Made by a program: the position numbers and the translations under genes. 64,000 nucleotides of DNA from Natrinema halophilum (lineage in GTDB: Archaea; Halobacteriota; Halobacteria; Halobacteriales; Natrialbaceae): contig NZ_CP084880.1 of assembly GCF_013402815.2 (NCBI RefSeq), forward strand, positions 248,001 to 312,000, in the 5' to 3' direction. The stretch's first letter is position 1; each line of letters opens with the position of its first letter. Under the pieces are notes generated by a model. That model ran no database searches and had not been told where the DNA came from. It was given only the letters and a program-made list of their open reading frames with translations. Below are positions 26,042 to 41,473 of this stretch, one piece after another.

Positions 26042-26263
26042 TCAAACGCGTGGCCCCTTCCAGAATATGCCTGGCAATTCTCATATATGCAGTATCGATC
26101 ACTTTATCATCGAATCGTACACTCTCCGGGATTCTTCGAGCAGCGCCGTCCTCATCAATTCTAATATCTATCGTCGAAACTTCACATCACTCTCGTCGGT
26201 CGCGATACGATCGTCGATCGGATCGGCGTGGCCTGGTTCGACGACCCGATCCCCGATATAACC

Positions 26264-26414
26264 GATGTCGCCGATGTCGCCGATGTCGCCGATGTCGCCG
26301 ATGTCGCCGATGTCGCCGATGTCGTCGATGTCGCCGATGTCGTCGATGTCGCCGATGTCGTCGATGTCGTCGATGTCGTCGATGTCGTCGATGTCGTCGA
26401 TGTCGCCGATGTCA
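26264..26414. repeat. 9-bp minisatellite, about 16 copies
   Basis: Tandem array of GATGTCGCC alternating with the variant GATGTCGTC. Because the unit is a multiple of three, all six frames stay open: one strand reads repeated Asp-Val-Ala/Val, the other Gly-Asp-Ile/Asp-Asp-Ile. A minus-strand frame (26168-26500) and plus-strand frames run through it, but none has recognisable flanks, so I treat it as a repeat rather than a gene. Confidence 0.9.
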
Positions 26415-33817: not shown

Positions 33818-34310
33818 TTCCGCTCGCGGTTTTCCGTCACGTGTAGTTGGTAGCTTCTCCTCCGGAGTTGTGTCGGGTCTTGCTCGTTCCGCCCTCCTAT
33901 CGACTGGCGAAGCTGGTTGTGCGAGGTCTGAATTCTATGCAGGCATGTACTTCCCACCTGCAAGACGTCCACTACCGTACCGATCCCGTCACTGCGTTCC
34001 GTCAGGATCGAACGGCAGGTCCCTGCACAGAGGCGAGTCGGAGTACGGTCGAGAATGCGTCTGAGGCAAGACTCTGCTGTTAGACGCGGGTGGTATTCGC
34101 GCCACCCCTGTCCGAATTTCATATAGCGGAATAGAATTCATGGATTGCAGGCGGGTTCAGGGTACTAATGGGTGTAGATCGGTTGTCCACTTGCGACAAC
34201 AGTCTACACGGTAGTTTTTAATATCTGTCACCACTGCGTAGATGCACGAAAATGCCAGTTTCAAAATCCACCCTGAACGGAGCGAATCCACTCTTTGGTC
34301 GCGTCAAACC
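33818..34310. other. Spacer upstream of integrase
   Basis: No gene recognised. The AT-rich segment around 34210-34240 is promoter-like. Attachment-site repeats for the integrase were looked for by eye and not found. Confidence 0.4.
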
Positions 34311-35540
34311 ATGACCGATGCCGATACCGACACGATTCGCTGGTCACACAAATCACTCGAAGAGCTTCGAACGTTCTGGACGGCCCGCATCGAACCGGAA
34401 CTTCGTCGTCACGGTCACGACCTCGACGATCGGCCGACCTATCGAGACCTTCTCGACGCTGGATTCGGCGGCCTGCAGGATGCGCTTCGAGAACAGCATG
34501 ATCTGACGCTCGCAGAATTTCTTCGATCCGTTGGTTTCGTCGACGAGTCTGCGGACGGGTACAGGTGGCATATCGGGGACGAATCTACCGTCGACGAACT
34601 CCGGTCGTACATTCGAACCCTCGATCGGCGGCGGGACCTCGCCGAAAATACGATTGCGACTAAACAGTCCCGGCTCGCCACGTACGCGCGATTGTATCGA
34701 GACGTCCACGGCCGGGCCGACCTAACCGGTCGCATAGATGACATCGAAGAGAAAGCTCACGAAATCGAGCGTGTTCTCGCCGTTTTCGACGAACTCGATC
34801 GCAACCTCGATAGTGACGAGTCGAAACTCAGGTACTTGGGCGACGTGTCACAATTTTACGAGCATCTCGTTCGACGTGGAAAAGCAGCGTACAACCCCGC
34901 GGAAACGATCGATATGGAATACGGTTGGAAACGACCAGAGCCCGATAACGTCGCCCTTTCCGACGAGCAGGTCAATCGGATCTACGATGCCGTCGAATCA
35001 CCGTCAGAAAAACTTCTCGTACTCGCTCTCTGCGGGTGGGGTCTCCGACGGAGCGAGGTCGCATCGCTCCACGTGTCCCAATTCGTACTCGACGGATCCG
35101 ATCCGCACATCTATTTCGAAGAACGCAAGAACGGGCCGGGTACGGTCGCGTTGATCTACGGTCGCCAGACAGTGGTCGATCGAATCGATGCGCTTAGCGC
35201 TCGAGACGGGGACTGGAACGGGTATCTCTTTCCGTCCGATCAGTCCACGTCTGGTCATATTATCGGCGATACGGTTCAAGCTCGCTTTCAGCGCATCGCG
35301 GACCGTGCGAGCGTTCAGGTCCGAGGGGAGACGCCAACTTCGAAGATGGGGCGCAGATTCTGGTATACTACGTACCTCGATTCGCAAAACGCCCTCCTCG
35401 ACAACCTCGAGGCGATTGCGGCTGACCAGGGGAGTTCGGACGTAAGCGTTGTCCTGAAAAATTACCTCTCGGAACAGCAGCGTCGCCAACACCGTCGAGA
35501 ATATATGCGCAAGCGTCTCACGAAGGCGTTTGCTCAGTAA
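34311..35540 (+). CDS. Tyrosine-recombinase-like integrase
   Basis: A 409-residue protein from ATG at 34311 (an in-frame upstream ATG at 34242 would add 23 residues). The N-terminal 170 residues are a haloarchaeal-type DNA-binding extension with a coiled helix; the C-terminal catalytic domain has LALCGWGLRRSEVASLHVSQ with the first catalytic Arg, FEERKNGPG with a Lys, and SKMGRRFWYTTYLD where the HxLRH box is expected, then VVLKNYLSEQQRR with a candidate Tyr. The box keeps Arg but lacks the usual His residues, a pattern I associate with a haloarchaeal integrase group. It may serve a mobile element or plasmid near the ParA operon. Confidence 0.75.
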   Translation: MTDADTDTIRWSHKSLEELRTFWTARIEPELRRHGHDLDDRPTYRDLLDAGFGGLQDALREQHDLTLAEFLRSVGFVDESADGYRWHIGDESTVDELRSYIRTLDRRRDLAENTIATKQSRLATYARLYRDVHGRADLTGRIDDIEEKAHEIERVLAVFDELDRNLDSDESKLRYLGDVSQFYEHLVRRGKAAYNPAETIDMEYGWKRPEPDNVALSDEQVNRIYDAVESPSEKLLVLALCGWGLRRSEVASLHVSQFVLDGSDPHIYFEERKNGPGTVALIYGRQTVVDRIDALSARDGDWNGYLFPSDQSTSGHIIGDTVQARFQRIADRASVQVRGETPTSKMGRRFWYTTYLDSQNALLDNLEAIAADQGSSDVSVVLKNYLSEQQRRQHRREYMRKRLTKAFAQ

Positions 35541-35986
35541 CGCCTTCTATTTTCGGTCATACTGTGATGAACTGATAGTGGTCTTTACTGTCTGAACTCT
35601 GTCGAGGTTGCTACTCTTACATCCATACACCAAATGGCGCTATATCTATCTCGGGCGTGTTGCGTTGTAAATGCCATCACAGATATTCGTGGGATTACCC
35701 CGTTTTGCCGCCCTGTTATCCGAAGACCAACCAACTAGAAGGTGTTCACCTATCACGAAACTTCGAACAGAAACTCATCGGCGAAATCAACCAAAACAAC
35801 TGTTTTGGCTACTGAAGGCTCTCCCGAAACGGGAACCCAGAACTAGAGGGTAAACGAGTGTGTGTTCCGAGGCGGTCGCTCAAATTATTTAAACCATGGT
35901 CGGCTATCGGAATGTTCATGAATTAAACCCTGCTGTGAATGGGGGATGGAAGCAGCCTCGAATCGCGGTGAACGCGGGTTATACAT
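35541..35986. other. Spacer before the TnpB relic
   Basis: No intact gene. A 60-residue open frame at 35671-35853 has no recognisable content. The stretch probably contains deleted transposon sequence, since TnpB C-terminal coding begins right after it. Confidence 0.35.
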
Positions 35987-36169
35987 GTGAAGAACTGCGA
36001 ATTGGTGGCTGATAGTGACGTGAATGCGGCTGAGAATATGCGTGCGGCGGGAACTCCGCGTCCTGCCCAGGATAGGAACGGCTATCTAGCCCAGCCATCG
36101 GTTCGCCTGTTCGACAATCAAATCGGGGGGAGTTGCCTCACAAGAACAGGTCCAACCGTAGACCGGTAA
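35987..36169 (+). pseudogene. TnpB (IS200/IS605 group) C-terminal fragment
   Basis: The frame encodes DSDVNAAENMRAAGTPRPAQ, then DRNGYLAQP. DVNAA.N with its Asp is the last RuvC-like motif of TnpB, the RNA-guided nuclease of IS605-type elements, followed by the typical haloarchaeal tail. The zinc finger just upstream is degraded and the rest of the gene is missing. It is a dead remnant; the downstream hairpin at 36199 may be its right end. Confidence 0.75.
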
Positions 36170-36197
36170 CTATCCCAACGGTGCCGTGTAGTTCGGA

Positions 36198-36237
36198 AAG
36201 CCCCGTCGTCGGGCTGTGCCCAACCGCTTGAGGGATC
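36198..36237 (+). other. Possible right end of the IS605-type element
   Basis: About 30 bp after the TnpB stop, AAGCCCCGTCGTCGGGCT forms a 5-bp stem and is followed by GTGCCCAACCGCTTGAGGGA. The position and the hairpin followed by an unpaired segment fit the right end of IS605-type elements, from which guide RNAs of TnpB are made. This is inferred from position and shape only. Confidence 0.35.
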
Positions 36238-36342
36238 GATGATCACTCTCCGTTTACGACGGGGCGGAGGTCTCCATGTACTACGAACCGGGCCCGTGAA
36301 TGGCTGGTATCGTTCGCAACTTGACCGAACTTACTATACGGA

Positions 36343-36834
36343 CTAGTCGACCGACTCGAAGCCCCAGTCTCGAAGCCGATCGACGACGTCATCGACGTTG
36401 TACATTGCTGCTTCGTAGGCTGCCTCTCGAACGTCGGTCTTCGAAACGTCAGTTCCGAGTTCTTCGCTTACCGCGTCAACGAAATCGCTCTCTGCGTCGG
36501 TCACATAATCCCGCAAGTAAAATTGCACCATCTCGCGGTCCTGTTTTACGTTATCGCGGACGTAAACCCATGGAACGCCCGAATCGCTCGCACTGTTTTG
36601 TGGCGGATCGTCTACGATCGAGTCGTTCGATCCCGTTTCCCGTTCGGTAACTGTCTCATCGGTCGTCGTTTTTGCCTCCGCTGTTGATTCCGATTCCTCG
36701 TTTTGCCGATCCGGTTTTGAATCGGGTTCATCGTCGGTTGCTTCATCGGTGGGCTTTTCTTCAGTAGTTTGTTTTCCGGCGGTATCGTCTTGGCCCATGT
36801 CTGCGAATGGATCGCTCCCGGTTCCTTTTTTCAT
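36343..36834 (-). CDS. ParA-associated partner protein (putative partition protein)
   Basis: A 163-residue protein whose ATG overlaps the stop of parA (ATGA), so the two are translated together. Residues 1-85 are a disordered Glu/Asp/Thr-rich region; the C-terminal part (VPWVYVRDNVKQDREMVQFY, then DVREAAYEAAMYNVDDVVD) looks helical and folded. It has no ParB-type motif I recognise. By position it should be the DNA-binding or adaptor partner of the ParA ATPase, perhaps recognising the iterated repeats beyond 37.7 kb (inference). Confidence 0.7.
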   Translation of the reverse strand: MKKGTGSDPFADMGQDDTAGKQTTEEKPTDEATDDEPDSKPDRQNEESESTAEAKTTTDETVTERETGSNDSIVDDPPQNSASDSGVPWVYVRDNVKQDREMVQFYLRDYVTDAESDFVDAVSEELGTDVSKTDVREAAYEAAMYNVDDVVDRLRDWGFESVD

Positions 36835-37673
36835 AGACCGCCCACCTCCTCGATTTTCGTTGCTAGTTGATCGATTTTCTCGAGCGTCTCCATTTCGTGG
36901 TCGCGCTGTCGGTCCCTGTGTGCATCGACGTAGTGGCGTGGGGTACACTGCTGATCCCAGCATCCCTCGAAGAGCGACGACCGGTCGCGGATCGCAACGG
37001 GTGCCGGATAGCCCCGATCGCGAATTTCCGACAAATACCGTTCCTGATCGGACGTTCGACCGACACCATTTGGGACTGCAGAGAGGACGCCGATTTCCGC
37101 TTCGAGCCGATCCTCGAGACCATCGACGAGTTCTTCCAGTCCGAGGACGCTTTGCATGCCCTTGCCGGTCGGCTCGACGGGGATTACCAGACTCCGTGTC
37201 GCCGAGACTGCATTGTACAGGTGGGGGCCTGCAGTCGCAGGCGGGTCGACGACGATGACGTCGTATTTCTGGGGAAGCCCAGATTCGAGGAGTACCTGTC
37301 GGAGCCGATCGTATGGGTCGAACTCGTCTCCCTCGCCGAGATCCTCCGCCATCTGCTGTGCCCGGTTGAGAAGATCCTCGAGGTTTTCCAGCATATTATG
37401 GCTTGGAAGTAAATCGAGTCCGTATTCGGTTTCGTGAACGAGGTCCTCGAGTGGCCCTTTCGGCCGATCGATCAGATGTCGAACGATGTTGTCGGCCTGG
37501 CTATCGTCTCGTGGGGCATCGACGTCGAGAAAGTAGGTGAGCGATCCGTTTTGTTGATCCATATCGATCGCGAGGACATCGAGTCCGTGTGCAGCGTGGG
37601 ACTCGAGCAGTGCTGCGCCTATGGTGGTTTTTCCGACACCACCCGCTTCGGAGTAGGTCGTATATGTGAGCAT
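36831..37673 (-). CDS. parA: ParA family partition ATPase
   Basis: A 280-residue P-loop ATPase. The deviant Walker A EAGGVGKTT is at residues 9-17, switch I VLAIDMDQQNGSLTYFL follows, and the Walker B/switch II segment is DVIVVDPPATAGPHLYNA. Such ATPases drive segregation of plasmids or chromosomes with a DNA-binding partner and a centromere site. The partner gene overlaps its 3' end, and an array of degenerate repeats lies upstream, completing a partition locus. Placement on a plasmid or secondary replicon is suggested but no replication initiator is in the window. Confidence 0.92.
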   Translation of the reverse strand: MLTYTTYSEAGGVGKTTIGAALLESHAAHGLDVLAIDMDQQNGSLTYFLDVDAPRDDSQADNIVRHLIDRPKGPLEDLVHETEYGLDLLPSHNMLENLEDLLNRAQQMAEDLGEGDEFDPYDRLRQVLLESGLPQKYDVIVVDPPATAGPHLYNAVSATRSLVIPVEPTGKGMQSVLGLEELVDGLEDRLEAEIGVLSAVPNGVGRTSDQERYLSEIRDRGYPAPVAIRDRSSLFEGCWDQQCTPRHYVDAHRDRQRDHEMETLEKIDQLATKIEEVGGL

Positions 37674-37720
37674 GGTTGTCGGTTAGTCTTCTTGAATATA
37701 ATACTTCGCCACACCGTCTG

Positions 37721-38800
37721 GATAGTCTAACTAGTTGGCCTAACCGAATAGCTCATCTCCAGATGAGCGATTACTTGGTTCGTATCCGCCATTTCGACCC
37801 GCTACGATCGGTTAGGCCACTCGGGACGCTTGACCAGATGTGTTGTCTAGCAGAATATGTTTTCTTGGCCATTCTATAACATCTTTCGTGTGATTGATCG
37901 AGTTCGGATAACTCTGTTTACGCAGGCCAATTAATTCGATAGAACAACCGGATTATGCGCCGCAAGTGGTTTGAGTACGTGATCTATATGGTTTCGTCTG
38001 CGTTTTCTAGTTAGGATCACTGGCACGCCTATTCAAGAAGTCTTGCCAACTGGCCTATCTGGTTGAAACTCCTGCCAAGCACGTGCGATTAGATCACAGG
38101 TGTTTTGATAAATCGACAGGCTCCATCCGTATAACGTAAAGCAGCCTATCCAATCAGACTAATCGATTAGCCTTACCGGTATATCTATTCAATAGGTATA
38201 CTCCGGCTGATACCGGGTTTCCTGTCCCTGATACCGTGTGGCTTTGTCGAGTAGCCGAACGGAATAGCATATCCGAATAGCCTAACCAATAAGTCAACCT
38301 GGTTAGTTAACAGCCCCGTCCAATTACGTCAGGAACGGCAGTTCGACGGGAATACTCCTATCCTGAGAAACTAACCCAATAGCCTAACCGAATAGCATAT
38401 TCGACCAGTTTCCCCCTCCTTTCTCAGACAGGGGGTGTTGGCCACGGAGGCGGAAGGTCTCGGAACTGAGTCCAGCTGTAGTTATTAGACAGGCCTTCTT
38501 GATAGCTTTACTAGTTAACCTAACTAATCGGTGTATCCGTATAGGCTAACGGGTTAGGATAATGGGGTTGTATAGCAGAATCGTTTCTTCGGGTTAGACG
38601 CTTTCCGGAGGGAGACGAAATAGCATATTCGGATAGCCTATCTGGCCAGCCTAACCAGACGGCCTTCCCCTTCCGCCAATTTCCAGAATACTGATCACTG
38701 GTTATACCACGGAGACAGAACGGGACGTGCATCTTTCCAGAAAGGCTCATCGAGTAGCATTACTGGTTGGGCTAACTAGTTGGCCTATCCGAAATCTCTC
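37721..38800. repeat. Iterated degenerate repeats upstream of parA (candidate centromere/origin)
   Basis: About 1.1 kb without a gene is filled with variants of short words: TAGCCTAACC/TAGCCTATCC, CTAACTAGTTGGCCTA (37727 and about 38773) and AATAGCATATTCG or AATAGCATATCCG (about 38264, 38391, 38619). Several are joined, as in GAATAGCATATCCGAATAGC followed by CTAACC at 38261-38288 and CCTAACCGAATAGCATATTC at 38383-38402. The words occur in both orientations and in clusters spaced by roughly 100-130 bp. This resembles iteron or centromere arrays next to ParA operons. The repeats also cover the parA promoter, so autoregulation is possible. Confidence 0.75.
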
Positions 38801-38990
38801 CTTCTTCTCAAGCGTTGTCAACGCGATCATTCGCTATGCGTACGAAACACAGTTGCCGCTTCTACGGAGTTGCTGTAGAGGACTGGCGGCGTCACCGAGA
38901 CAACGGTCGTGATCAGGTCGGCCCCAGTCGGGTGCGAGTGAAGGGGAGATCGGGCTACCCAATATGCTGCCACGACGGCAGTTTCGAGTA

Positions 38991-39314
38991 TCAACCTGTT
39001 TCGATCAGTTCTGCCTCACCGTACGTCTCGTCGACAGACGTGACGCGAACTGTTGCCTCAATCGCCGAAATGTCTGCCTCGAGAAAGAGGACGAAACCGC
39101 TCTCTGTTTTACAGACGAGCGTGCCGTCTGACTTCTCGTCGACGATATCGACAGCAACGGTGTCCCCGAGTTCGGGCTTTCCGCCGAGGGGTTCTCCACA
39201 CCGCCAACAGTCCGTGTCGTACTCTGAGGATTCTTCCGGAGCGTTATTGGCACCACATCGTGGCGTATCGCACTTGATATACGAGTCGTGGATTCCCGGC
39301 TGGTAGCGTCCCAC
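38991..39314 (-). CDS. Small zinc-ribbon plus TRAM-domain protein
   Basis: A 107-residue protein from GTG at 39314. The N-terminal part has two Cys pairs (IKCDTPRCGA and DCWRCGEPLGG) forming a zinc ribbon; the rest (LGDTVAVDIVDEKSDGTLVC, then TVRVTSVDETYGEAEL) matches a TRAM-like RNA-binding beta-barrel. Proteins of this kind in haloarchaea are thought to bind RNA. It follows the repeat region and is transcribed toward it. Confidence 0.75.
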   Translation of the reverse strand: MGRYQPGIHDSYIKCDTPRCGANNAPEESSEYDTDCWRCGEPLGGKPELGDTVAVDIVDEKSDGTLVCKTESGFVLFLEADISAIEATVRVTSVDETYGEAELIETG

Positions 39315-39609
39315 ACCGGACCGAGGCTACTGTCTCTAAAAAATGTACCGTTCAGTTCGCGAATTCCTATTGCGTCGTCGTATCCGAAGACCATCGCTAC
39401 ACTACTGCTGCGGGACGGAAGCCGCTTGCATGATACGTTGCCCGGTGGCGATTCACCTACAGTCGCCCCGTATGGGTTCGTGATTTACGACGGCACCTCG
39501 GAGAGGCCGTAGCTATCTGGAAGTGCAGTGGGTCAAGACGCGGCTCTCACTCTCTATGATTGAAACTCCACATATAAGCGAGTCCGGAAATAGTCTGTCG
39601 TCGCTTACG
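39315..39609. other. Spacer with no gene seen
   Basis: No supported gene or repeat between the TRAM protein start and the end of the PadR-like gene. Confidence 0.4.
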
Positions 39610-39888
39610 TCATTCGAGACCGACGAACTGATTTTCCCACTCCCGTCGGGCCTCGAGTTCCCGGGTACCTCGTCGAGTAACCGAATAGATGTTGGTTCGG
39701 CGATCTTTTTCCCCCTTCTCGACGAGCCCCTTGTCGACGAGCGTGTCCAGATTCGGATAGAGTCGCCCGTGGTGGATTTCCTTCTCGTAGTAGTTTTCGA
39801 GTTCTTCCTTGATGGCGAGCCCGTGGGGTTCGTCTTGACCGGCGATCACGTACAACAGGTCGCGCTGGAATCCAGTGAGATCGTACAT
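39610..39888 (-). CDS. PadR family transcriptional regulator
   Basis: A 92-residue winged-helix regulator from ATG at 39888: MYDLTGFQRDLLYVIAGQDE, PHGLAIKEELENYY, HHGRLYPNLDTLVDKGLVEK and the wing DRRTNIYSVTRRG. PadR proteins typically repress genes for stress or phenolic compounds. Its first 50 residues are almost identical to the regulator at 48359, differing mainly after the wing, so the two are recent duplicates. The upstream frame extension to 40005 has no support. Confidence 0.9.
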   Translation of the reverse strand: MYDLTGFQRDLLYVIAGQDEPHGLAIKEELENYYEKEIHHGRLYPNLDTLVDKGLVEKGEKDRRTNIYSVTRRGTRELEARREWENQFVGLE

Positions 39889-40445
39889 ACTTCTACTCTG
39901 TAGACCAACGTATAAAATTCCGTCTATCTTTGAACGAAGAGAGTCCCCCTTCCCCGGGGCGGCCGTAGAACGCAACCGGTTCCAATGCCATCCTGAAGCT
40001 ATCATCTCATTGAATAGAGTTGTATCCCCTTACCTGATACGACATATATTCCGGAATATCCGGGTTAGATATGTCAGTCGTCCGTGGTTCAGCGGAAAAT
40101 AATACGCACGAGCAAAGGTTGTGGGTTATTATCCTACAACCACTGATTTATTTTGAATCACAATGTGGCACAGGGCGAGCGCATTCCGCGTCTTCGAGCG
40201 CGGGATCGAGTAGTATTCATAGTGCGTCCGTTCCACACTACTCTACAGTATGTGGTTTTCGTACTGTTCAGTTGTAGTTAGAGTCGATAGCTACGTACAT
40301 ATCGCGTGAACGGGGGTACTGCCAGGGTGGGCGACGTTCGAGTGTTTGAGTTCGCAGTAGTGAGTTTCGATGGGCACTGGTATATCGTGGATACCGAGAT
40401 CGAATATAAACTCGAGCTCTCGGCGCTTGATTGGAAATTCGTCTC
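39889..40445. other. Spacer with no gene seen
   Basis: AT-rich segments near 39890-39930 and 40030-40140 are probably promoter sequence for the PadR gene and unknown transcripts. No domain-bearing frame was found. Confidence 0.4.
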
Positions 40446-40769
40446 CTACGTCGGTTCAGCCGGGGTATAAGTGTAGAGACGGTAGATCAGACGGAGAACA
40501 GCAAAGAGGATACTCACCTGGAAGATGATTGGTATGTACGGTGGGACATCGGTGATCGCTACGAGGACACCGAGGACCAATGCTGCGATGCCGATGCGGA
40601 GGACAGTGTTCCCCGCGATGTCAGCGACGACGTCGTCTGGGAGCGGCGAAGTCCTATCGTAGCCTGCGAGAAGAAACGTCCAGCCACGGAATTTGATCAG
40701 TGCTCCTGTAATCATCAATAGACTGCCGACACTGAGCCACTGCAAGGCAGTAGAGGACGGTTCGATCAT
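40446..40769 (-). CDS. Small membrane protein (DUF3784-like)
   Basis: A 107-residue protein with three predicted membrane segments, near residues 9-33 (LQWLSVGSLLMITGALIKF), 54-72 (VLRIGIAALVLGVLVAI) and 78-97 (YIPIIFQVSILFAVLRLIY). The segment TFLLAGYDRTSPLPDD between the first two resembles DUF3784 membrane proteins. Its start overlaps the stop of the methyltransferase gene (ATGA), so it is translationally coupled to it. No function is known. Confidence 0.7.
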   Translation of the reverse strand: MIEPSSTALQWLSVGSLLMITGALIKFRGWTFLLAGYDRTSPLPDDVVADIAGNTVLRIGIAALVLGVLVAITDVPPYIPIIFQVSILFAVLRLIYRLYTYTPAEPT

Positions 40770-41473
40770 CGTCTGTCACCGCAATCAGGATCGATCTCGA
40801 ACGTGGTTATCATGCCGAGCAGTCCGGTATTCGTGTCCTGCACCGTGAGGCCCGCTTCCGCGACAATTTCTCTTGGTTCTTGGGTCCATCGGCATCCCAT
40901 CTTCGCATAGTGTGCATCAGTACGCCACTCCTGGTACCTCGCGATTGCTCCCACGTCGCTACGCCCGTGTTCGACCAGGCGAATCGTTCCATCGGGCTTG
41001 CAGACACGTTCCATCTCCCGCAGCGCAGCGACCGGGTTCGGGAACGTACACGTCGACAGCGCGGAGATCACCACGTCGAAGCTGTCGTCGGGAAAATCGA
41101 GATCCTGTGCGTCCATCTCTCGGAGCGTGCCGTCCATTCCCAGCGCGGCGAGTTGCTCGTCGGCGTTCGCTAGCATTTCCGGGCTGATGTCGATTCCGAC
41201 GAGATCGACCGTGTCGGGGAGATACCGGAAGTTCGCCCCAGCCCCGCAGGCGACGTCCAGTACCCTCCCTTCCACGTCGCCGAACCGGGAGCGACGATAT
41301 CGACCAGTGACGACGCGGTCGAACAGCTCGAATCGATGCATCCAGTCGGCATATTCGGCATAGGTGGACTTGATCTCCGAGACCGACATCGATCGGTTCG
41401 ACGCTGGATCGGTGTCGTCTCGATGGTGCTCGCTGCAGGGCTTGTGCTGCGTCGGTTGTTCAGTTCGAGTCAT
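40766..41473 (-). CDS. Class I SAM-dependent methyltransferase
   Basis: A 235-residue methyltransferase. After a polar 30-residue leader, the SAM-binding motif I is VLDVACGAGANFRYLP, then LVGIDISPEMLANADEQ (motif II) and FDVVISALSTCTFPNP (motif IV), followed by REMERVCKPDGTIRLVEH. It resembles UbiE/phosphatidylethanolamine-type small-molecule methyltransferases; the acceptor is unknown. The gene starts 30 bp after the end of the S9 peptidase gene on the same strand and is coupled to the small membrane protein downstream, likely one operon. Confidence 0.88.
   Translation of the reverse strand: MTRTEQPTQHKPCSEHHRDDTDPASNRSMSVSEIKSTYAEYADWMHRFELFDRVVTGRYRRSRFGDVEGRVLDVACGAGANFRYLPDTVDLVGIDISPEMLANADEQLAALGMDGTLREMDAQDLDFPDDSFDVVISALSTCTFPNPVAALREMERVCKPDGTIRLVEHGRSDVGAIARYQEWRTDAHYAKMGCRWTQEPREIVAEAGLTVQDTNTGLLGMITTFEIDPDCGDRR

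Follow-up and report, generated by a model that had tools for sequence, protein, structure and literature searches.

The gene-free DNA upstream of a parA operon in Natrinema halophilum carries an array of about 30 short sites, mostly arranged in runs of 2–4 units, which is very probably the partition centromere (parS) of the plasmid and, at its parA end, an operator through which the operon would regulate itself, both read by the product of the partner gene of parA. The exact 13-bp register of these units is the main feature of the array. The window, i.e., the whole 64,000-nt stretch of DNA that was analysed, corresponds to bases 248001–312000 of the 425,401-bp replicon C2 in a three-contig genome.

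The unit of the array is the 13-bp pseudo-palindrome RRWTAGNCTAWYY, with the consensus RRWTAG-N-CTAWYY and a single central base. Sites were called with a PWM derived from related loci (Table 1). The sequence-only reading had described a gene-free stretch with repeated words in both orientations beside an overlapping parA/partner pair, and each of these elements is present, with no apparent gene to the right of parA up to ~38800. The array that it had placed at 37721–38800 is real, but begins nearer parA, at 37681, and ends at ~38790; likewise, its repeat words are real but turn out to be phases of one 13-bp unit, whose exact register had been missed.

Autocorrelation at lag 13 reached 0.358 over 37701–38800, the maximum of the whole window (a mean of 0.253, sd 0.019), and the top value outside the array was 0.303. 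Against 2000 dinucleotide shuffles, the lag-13 value of the array was 0.360 vs. 0.250 ± 0.013 (shuffle maximum 0.293; z = 8.5), and half-site patterns numbered 20 vs. 3.3 ± 1.8 (maximum 11). The repeat density had been claimed to lie far above that of the other spacers in the window, and the repeat words to be open to refutation by shuffled sequence; the density claim holds, and the words exceed every shuffle. A repeat finder returned 31- and 26-nt direct repeats, many copies of which (families D1 and D2) lie exactly 13 or 26 bp apart, and an Rfam search of 35000–41000 gave no match. Genome-wide, exact RRWTAGNCTAWYY has nine matches, three of them in the array. The others are single and near the control rate of 4, for which reason scattered chromosomal sites of the SegB kind were rejected.

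Table 1. Coordinates (in the window) of the par locus and of the 13-bp sites in its array.
Feature	Position	Strand	Basis or remark
Partner gene, 163 aa, proposed centromere-binding protein and parA activator	36343..36834	-	next to parA at every locus surveyed
parA, Walker-type ATPase, 280 aa	36831..37673	-	Pfam AAA_31 5e-17; Soj/ParA structures 3e-8
Whole array, proposed centromere (parS) and parA operator	37681..38790	.	PWM, shuffle test, kept in orthologues
Promoter-proximal site, proposed operator	37681..37693	-	PWM score 10.3; 8-20 nt upstream of parA start codon
TATA-like box of parA, GTATTATATTC on minus strand	37694..37704	-	read from sequence; inference, no transcript data
Three contiguous 13-bp units	37720..37758	+	PWM
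Single 13-bp site	37810..37822	-	PWM
Single 13-bp site	38048..38060	+	PWM
Three contiguous 13-bp units; weak unit then in register at 38191	38139..38177	+	PWM
Four contiguous 13-bp units	38249..38300	+	PWM
Two contiguous 13-bp units	38377..38402	+	PWM
Units in 13-bp register at 38513, 38539, 38552	38513..38564	+	PWM
Four contiguous 13-bp units	38618..38669	+	PWM
Four contiguous 13-bp units	38739..38790	+	PWM

The putative TATA-like box of parA is centred ~26 nt upstream of the start codon and has array sites on either side, the promoter-proximal site lying between the box and the start codon. A site at or close to the parA start was likewise found in nearly all group A loci and in most others.

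The same geometry recurs across the haloarchaea. The partner family is widespread there (present in 85 of 125 genomes of the host's taxonomic family), and a search of 393 genomes of the phylum gave strong partner matches only within the haloarchaeal order, with weak ones (E > 0.001) outside it. About 96 loci were extracted, and in every readable one the partner gene either overlaps the parA stop or directly adjoins it. For 92 loci, the sequence upstream of parA was long enough to scan lags of 8–44 bp, and the strongest was 13 in 75 of them, 26 in 8 and 39 in 3 (86 of 92 in total), as compared with 13 in 3 of 84 control stretches taken 2.5–3.5 kb upstream, in which 26 or 39 never came first. 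Pooled same-strand spacings between sites were 13 bp 631 times, 12 bp 3 times and 14 bp once, with sharp peaks at 26, 39, 52, 65 and every multiple up to 78. Since 13 bp so far outnumbers its neighbours and the multiples are this sharp, conservation of the spacing reaches single-base precision in spite of a degenerate sequence. In a second set, drawn later and made up of 23 loci that mostly belong to other families, the strongest lag was 13 or 26 in 22. Many of the loci are close relatives, and the counts are not independent events.

The extent of the array in orthologues is similar to the ~1.1 kb measured here; three loci (L038, L056 and L117) had weak or displaced arrays despite an apparently intact ParA. 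A common higher-order period of the runs was sought without yielding a sharp shared value, the spacing being roughly 85–125 bp in some loci. Upstream of parA in one locus (L041), successive runs of 13-bp units recur at about 83–98 bp, and in other loci at 100–140 bp. There may be a higher-order spacing of runs, not common to all loci. Among named plasmids, the system is carried by pNRC200 and pHS2 of Halobacterium salinarum, pHME132 of Haloferax mediterranei, PL100 of Haloquadratum walsbyi and pNMAG01 of Natrialba magadii; in their records, the partner is labelled “hypothetical protein” and the array is unannotated.

The word written in the 13-bp units follows the lineage of the partner. We defined seven partner groups by six residues of a predicted strand, and a motif search that made no use of these residues returned seven words, one for each group. 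VQFYLR partners have the word CTAACC/TAG-N-CTA, xExHxR partners TCTGTNACAGA, VQLHLQ partners TATCTAAGA, LTFFVH partners TTTGNAACAA, HQLFVx partners CAGTANTACTG and HQFFLR partners CAGT; the word of VPLFLx partners is TGAACA, with a unit that is a direct repeat and not a palindrome. Words of the locus's own group occur 9–16 times per 700 bp, those of other groups mostly about once, and the clearest cross-reaction links groups F and G, both with Gln/Phe in the strand. Leave-one-out assignment placed 88 of 89 loci in the right group, the one failure being a truncated locus whose ParA has no P-loop. In the second set, the predicted group word was present in all 18 loci that belong to a defined group (18/18). 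The groups were defined from residues of the predicted strand, and that this strand determines specificity is therefore a hypothesis.

The groups of ParA are fully congruent with those of the partner, and a search for loci in which the two were mismatched found none, so linkage alone cannot tell which of the two proteins reads the word. A comparison of groups B and D is informative here: their words are unrelated, their partners are 39% identical and their ParAs 68% identical. Because the partners diverge along with the words and the ParAs less so, the partner, and not ParA, is favoured as the reader, an inference from sequence comparison for which there are no binding data. Reading by a general host DNA-binding protein is ruled out, since the window locus and a second locus at the start of C2 carry different words, each of which fits its own partner group.

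The partner gene overlaps the parA stop by 4 nt. In its product, a linker that is acidic (31% D+E, 4% K+R) joins an N-terminal MKxGSGxDPF motif to a conserved C-terminal domain of ~75 aa; the N terminus reads M, up to five residues and K-x-G in 94 of 94 partners. No family match was obtained in Pfam or NCBIfam and no relative of the partner profile among PDB sequences, in agreement with the sequence-only reading, which recognised no ParB-type motif in this protein. PHROGs gave nothing useful, and no homologue was found in phage records.

In an AlphaFold monomer model of the window partner, an extended strand-like segment is followed by three helices, with a core pLDDT of about 90 or more. The corresponding model of a group C partner has the same segment as a continuous helix, and the models thus disagree on the strand. 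Foldseek searches with two partner models in the PDB and one in BFVD returned no significant match; weak, non-significant matches were to ribbon-helix-helix (RHH) folds, namely ParD and the TCP domain, the latter an RHH (PMC10049435). In the segment, hydrophobic and variable residues alternate, and helices come next. Together, the weak fold matches and the sequence pattern suggest a ribbon-helix-helix-like dimer, which is a hypothesis and has not been established.

The other protein of the pair meets the definition of a ParA-family ATPase through its AAA_31 match, and its nearest solved structures are Soj/ParA proteins (E-values in Table 1). The P-loop lies at the very start of the protein (around residue 8) and reads SEAGGVGKTT, without the signature lysine of the deviant Walker A motif (KGGxGK). 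Since this lysine is commonly regarded as acting across the ParA dimer, its absence is unusual. Where related ParAs have a P-loop, it reads SEAGGVGK in most groups and SESGGT[YF]K in group C, and KGGVGK is kept in other ParA/Mrp-like P-loop proteins of the same genome.

Besides the par locus in the window, C2 has two more of this family, one at the contig start and one at 142 kb. The contig-start locus has an array of its own. At the third (C2:141660-149073; L035, L224), ParA lacks the N-terminal part with the P-loop and there is no 13-bp array, as if this locus were decaying. The 57-kb plasmid C3 (L222, L225) of this genome encodes a canonical KGGVGK ParA, followed downstream by another protein, and lacks a 13-bp array; its par locus is read here as a second partition type in one cell. 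Within the window, a tyrosine-type integrase is encoded at 34242–35540, and a remnant that reads like the C-terminal end of TnpB (SDVNAAENMRAAG) lies at 35980–36110, just downstream of the partner gene. Farther away, at 26262–26413, a 9-bp repeat (CCGATGTCG) is present in seventeen copies.

The sequence-only reading had left the choice between a centromere and an origin. The former is strongly supported, because in nearly all relatives the array accompanies the parA/partner pair and keeps its geometry, and its word changes from one partner lineage to the next. The array, its register, its conservation, its linkage to the partner lineage and the site at the parA start are direct observations. 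Iterated sites in a gene-free stretch do resemble iterons, and ParA loci often lie near origins, so that the sites could in principle be iterons or origin recognition boxes for an initiator. Predicted haloarchaeal origins are, however, defined by ORBs directly adjacent to orc/cdc6 (PMC3528665), and the Orc1/Cdc6 genes of C2 lie at 54–61 kb and at 246.9 kb, the nearest ~38 kb from the array. The word, moreover, varies with the ParA/partner lineage, and we consider a replication origin highly improbable. Copies produced by slippage and decay, as in neutral satellite DNA, would also be tandem and degenerate, as these units are. That explanation deserves next to no credence, given a strict 13-bp register in which core positions are conserved and the rest is degenerate in dozens of loci, the near absence of single-base spacing errors, group-specific words maintained across genera and the absence of the array where ParA is truncated.

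A third rival reading is that the array serves solely to autoregulate parA, as a long operator that is not a centromere. Autoregulation is common among partition operons, the promoter-proximal site separates the TATA-like box from the parA start codon, and most loci have kept a near-start site. One or two sites would be enough for repression, though, and about 30 sites in runs over 1.1 kb, with similar arrays in orthologues, extend far beyond a haloarchaeal promoter. The two functions are also compatible, as parS arrays of pSM19035 overlap promoters (PMC9499535), and an operator alone is in our view unlikely. Another possibility is that the array is read by ParA itself, or by another protein of the same linkage group, as the congruence of the groups would allow. 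This ParA lacks the N-terminal DNA-binding extension of type Ia ParAs, and it is the partner C-terminal domains that diverge in step with the words, the ParAs less so; we regard this alternative as very unlikely.

For a centromere read by the partner, the following mechanism may be proposed. Partner dimers would bind the 13-bp units through their C-terminal domain and, as the units are contiguous and in exact register, would align into a short oligomer along every run. On B-DNA, successive units 13 bp apart are rotated by about 86 degrees, so that about four units would make up one turn of the protein superhelix. With many runs along ~1.1 kb, a large partition complex could form, in which the N-terminal MKxGSGxDPF tail, carried on the acidic linker, would engage ParA-ATP on the nucleoid and trigger release, and the plasmid would be moved by the usual ParA gradient. 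Each partner lineage would read its own word, and coexisting replicons and par loci would not be confused. The partner as reader, binding as a dimer, activation of ParA, autoregulation and partition itself are all inferred, without binding, transcription or stability data.

The form that centromeres take on archaeal plasmids and chromosomes was an open question in a 2016 review (PMC5120986). In the open-access literature we found no description of a haloarchaeal plasmid centromere; an earlier description elsewhere is not excluded. With one geometry and a lineage-specific word at this gene pair across the haloarchaea, this type of array is a strong candidate for the long-sought haloarchaeal plasmid centromere. 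It would provide a sequence-level definition of the centromere, a 13-bp lattice upstream of a defined parA/partner pair, in which the partner sequence predicts the centromere word. The system is located on replicons of the genetically tractable Haloferax mediterranei (pHME132) and Halobacterium salinarum (pNRC200/pHS2), and possible uses include stable haloarchaeal vectors and the prediction of plasmid incompatibility. It would help explain the upkeep of megaplasmids in multi-replicon, polyploid haloarchaea, and, with the signature lysine missing from the whole ParA family, the system would put the need for this residue to the test. A further, more tentative idea, for which we see a limited chance, is that these loci form a distinct partition class specific to haloarchaea, in which a partner with no kinship to any known centromere protein reads the 13-bp lattice through a swappable six-residue strand, as a protein-to-centromere code, and drives a ParA that completes its ATPase cycle without the signature lysine.

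Among known systems, canonical bacterial ParABS likewise combines a ParA ATPase, an adjacent partner gene and a cis-acting site. It differs in that the partner here has no match to a ParB, HTH or CTPase domain and the site is an iterated array instead of an isolated 16-bp parS. The AspA-ParBA system of the Sulfolobus plasmid pNOB8 is another ParA system on an archaeal plasmid and it, too, has a palindromic site, together with an archaeal centromere protein (PMC5120986); there, three genes go with a 23-bp site, whereas here two genes go with 13-bp arrays and there is no ParB homologue.

SegAB of the Sulfolobales is archaeal too, and in both systems the 3' end of the ParA-type gene overlaps the partner gene and 13-bp palindromic sites with a one-base centre lie near the start of the ParA-type gene. 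The ChIP motif of SegB is the 13-bp palindrome TCTAGA S TCTAGA; such sites occur a short way upstream of segA and again near −59 (PMC12284271). SegB sites, in contrast, are scattered over the chromosome, mostly in genes, and here there is one array at a plasmid par locus. The partner was rejected as a SegB homologue, with an hhalign probability of 0.1% for partner profile A1 against four SegB; these four Sulfolobales proteins were verified against 7dv2 (3e-37), and with only four a very remote relation is not excluded. A local similarity of the partner and SegB, KTxx[KR]EA, had no hhalign support. An assignment of the window ParA to the SegA type was likewise rejected (SegA 7dut E = 1 vs. Soj 3e-8), and some members of the ParA family match SegA at 1e-11 in direct BLAST. 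As a separate observation on SegB, one Sulfolobales segB gene (L181:2223-2660) encodes about a dozen tandem 12-aa repeats (EEEKGLESTLKR), and each 36-bp DNA repeat contains GTCTAGAGTC, which resembles half of the SegB binding motif; this segB gene may itself be an array of SegB sites.

In its predicted mechanism the locus resembles the delta/omega system of the Streptococcus plasmid pSM19035, as it does SegAB in geometry. That system has, as here, short tandem repeats in contiguous runs that overlap the parA promoter; its centromere protein, an RHH ParB, is small and not of the HTH type, as would be the one proposed here. The RHH ParB of pSM19035 binds contiguous heptads in the parA promoter, and the ATPase is fully activated only with four or more of these repeats in a row (PMC9499535). 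The unit is 7 bp there and 13 bp here, where it is pseudo-palindromic in several groups; the array described here extends over ~1.1 kb in several runs, its partner could not be linked by sequence to any known family, and the signature lysine is missing from its ParA. By its sequence, the locus has the iterated cis-acting site at the operon that marks type I partition. As far as can be predicted, the system works like type I partition with iterated sites and is detectably neither ParB nor SegB. “Works like” is better supported than “is a member of”, and filing it as SegAB, ParB or omega is unwarranted.
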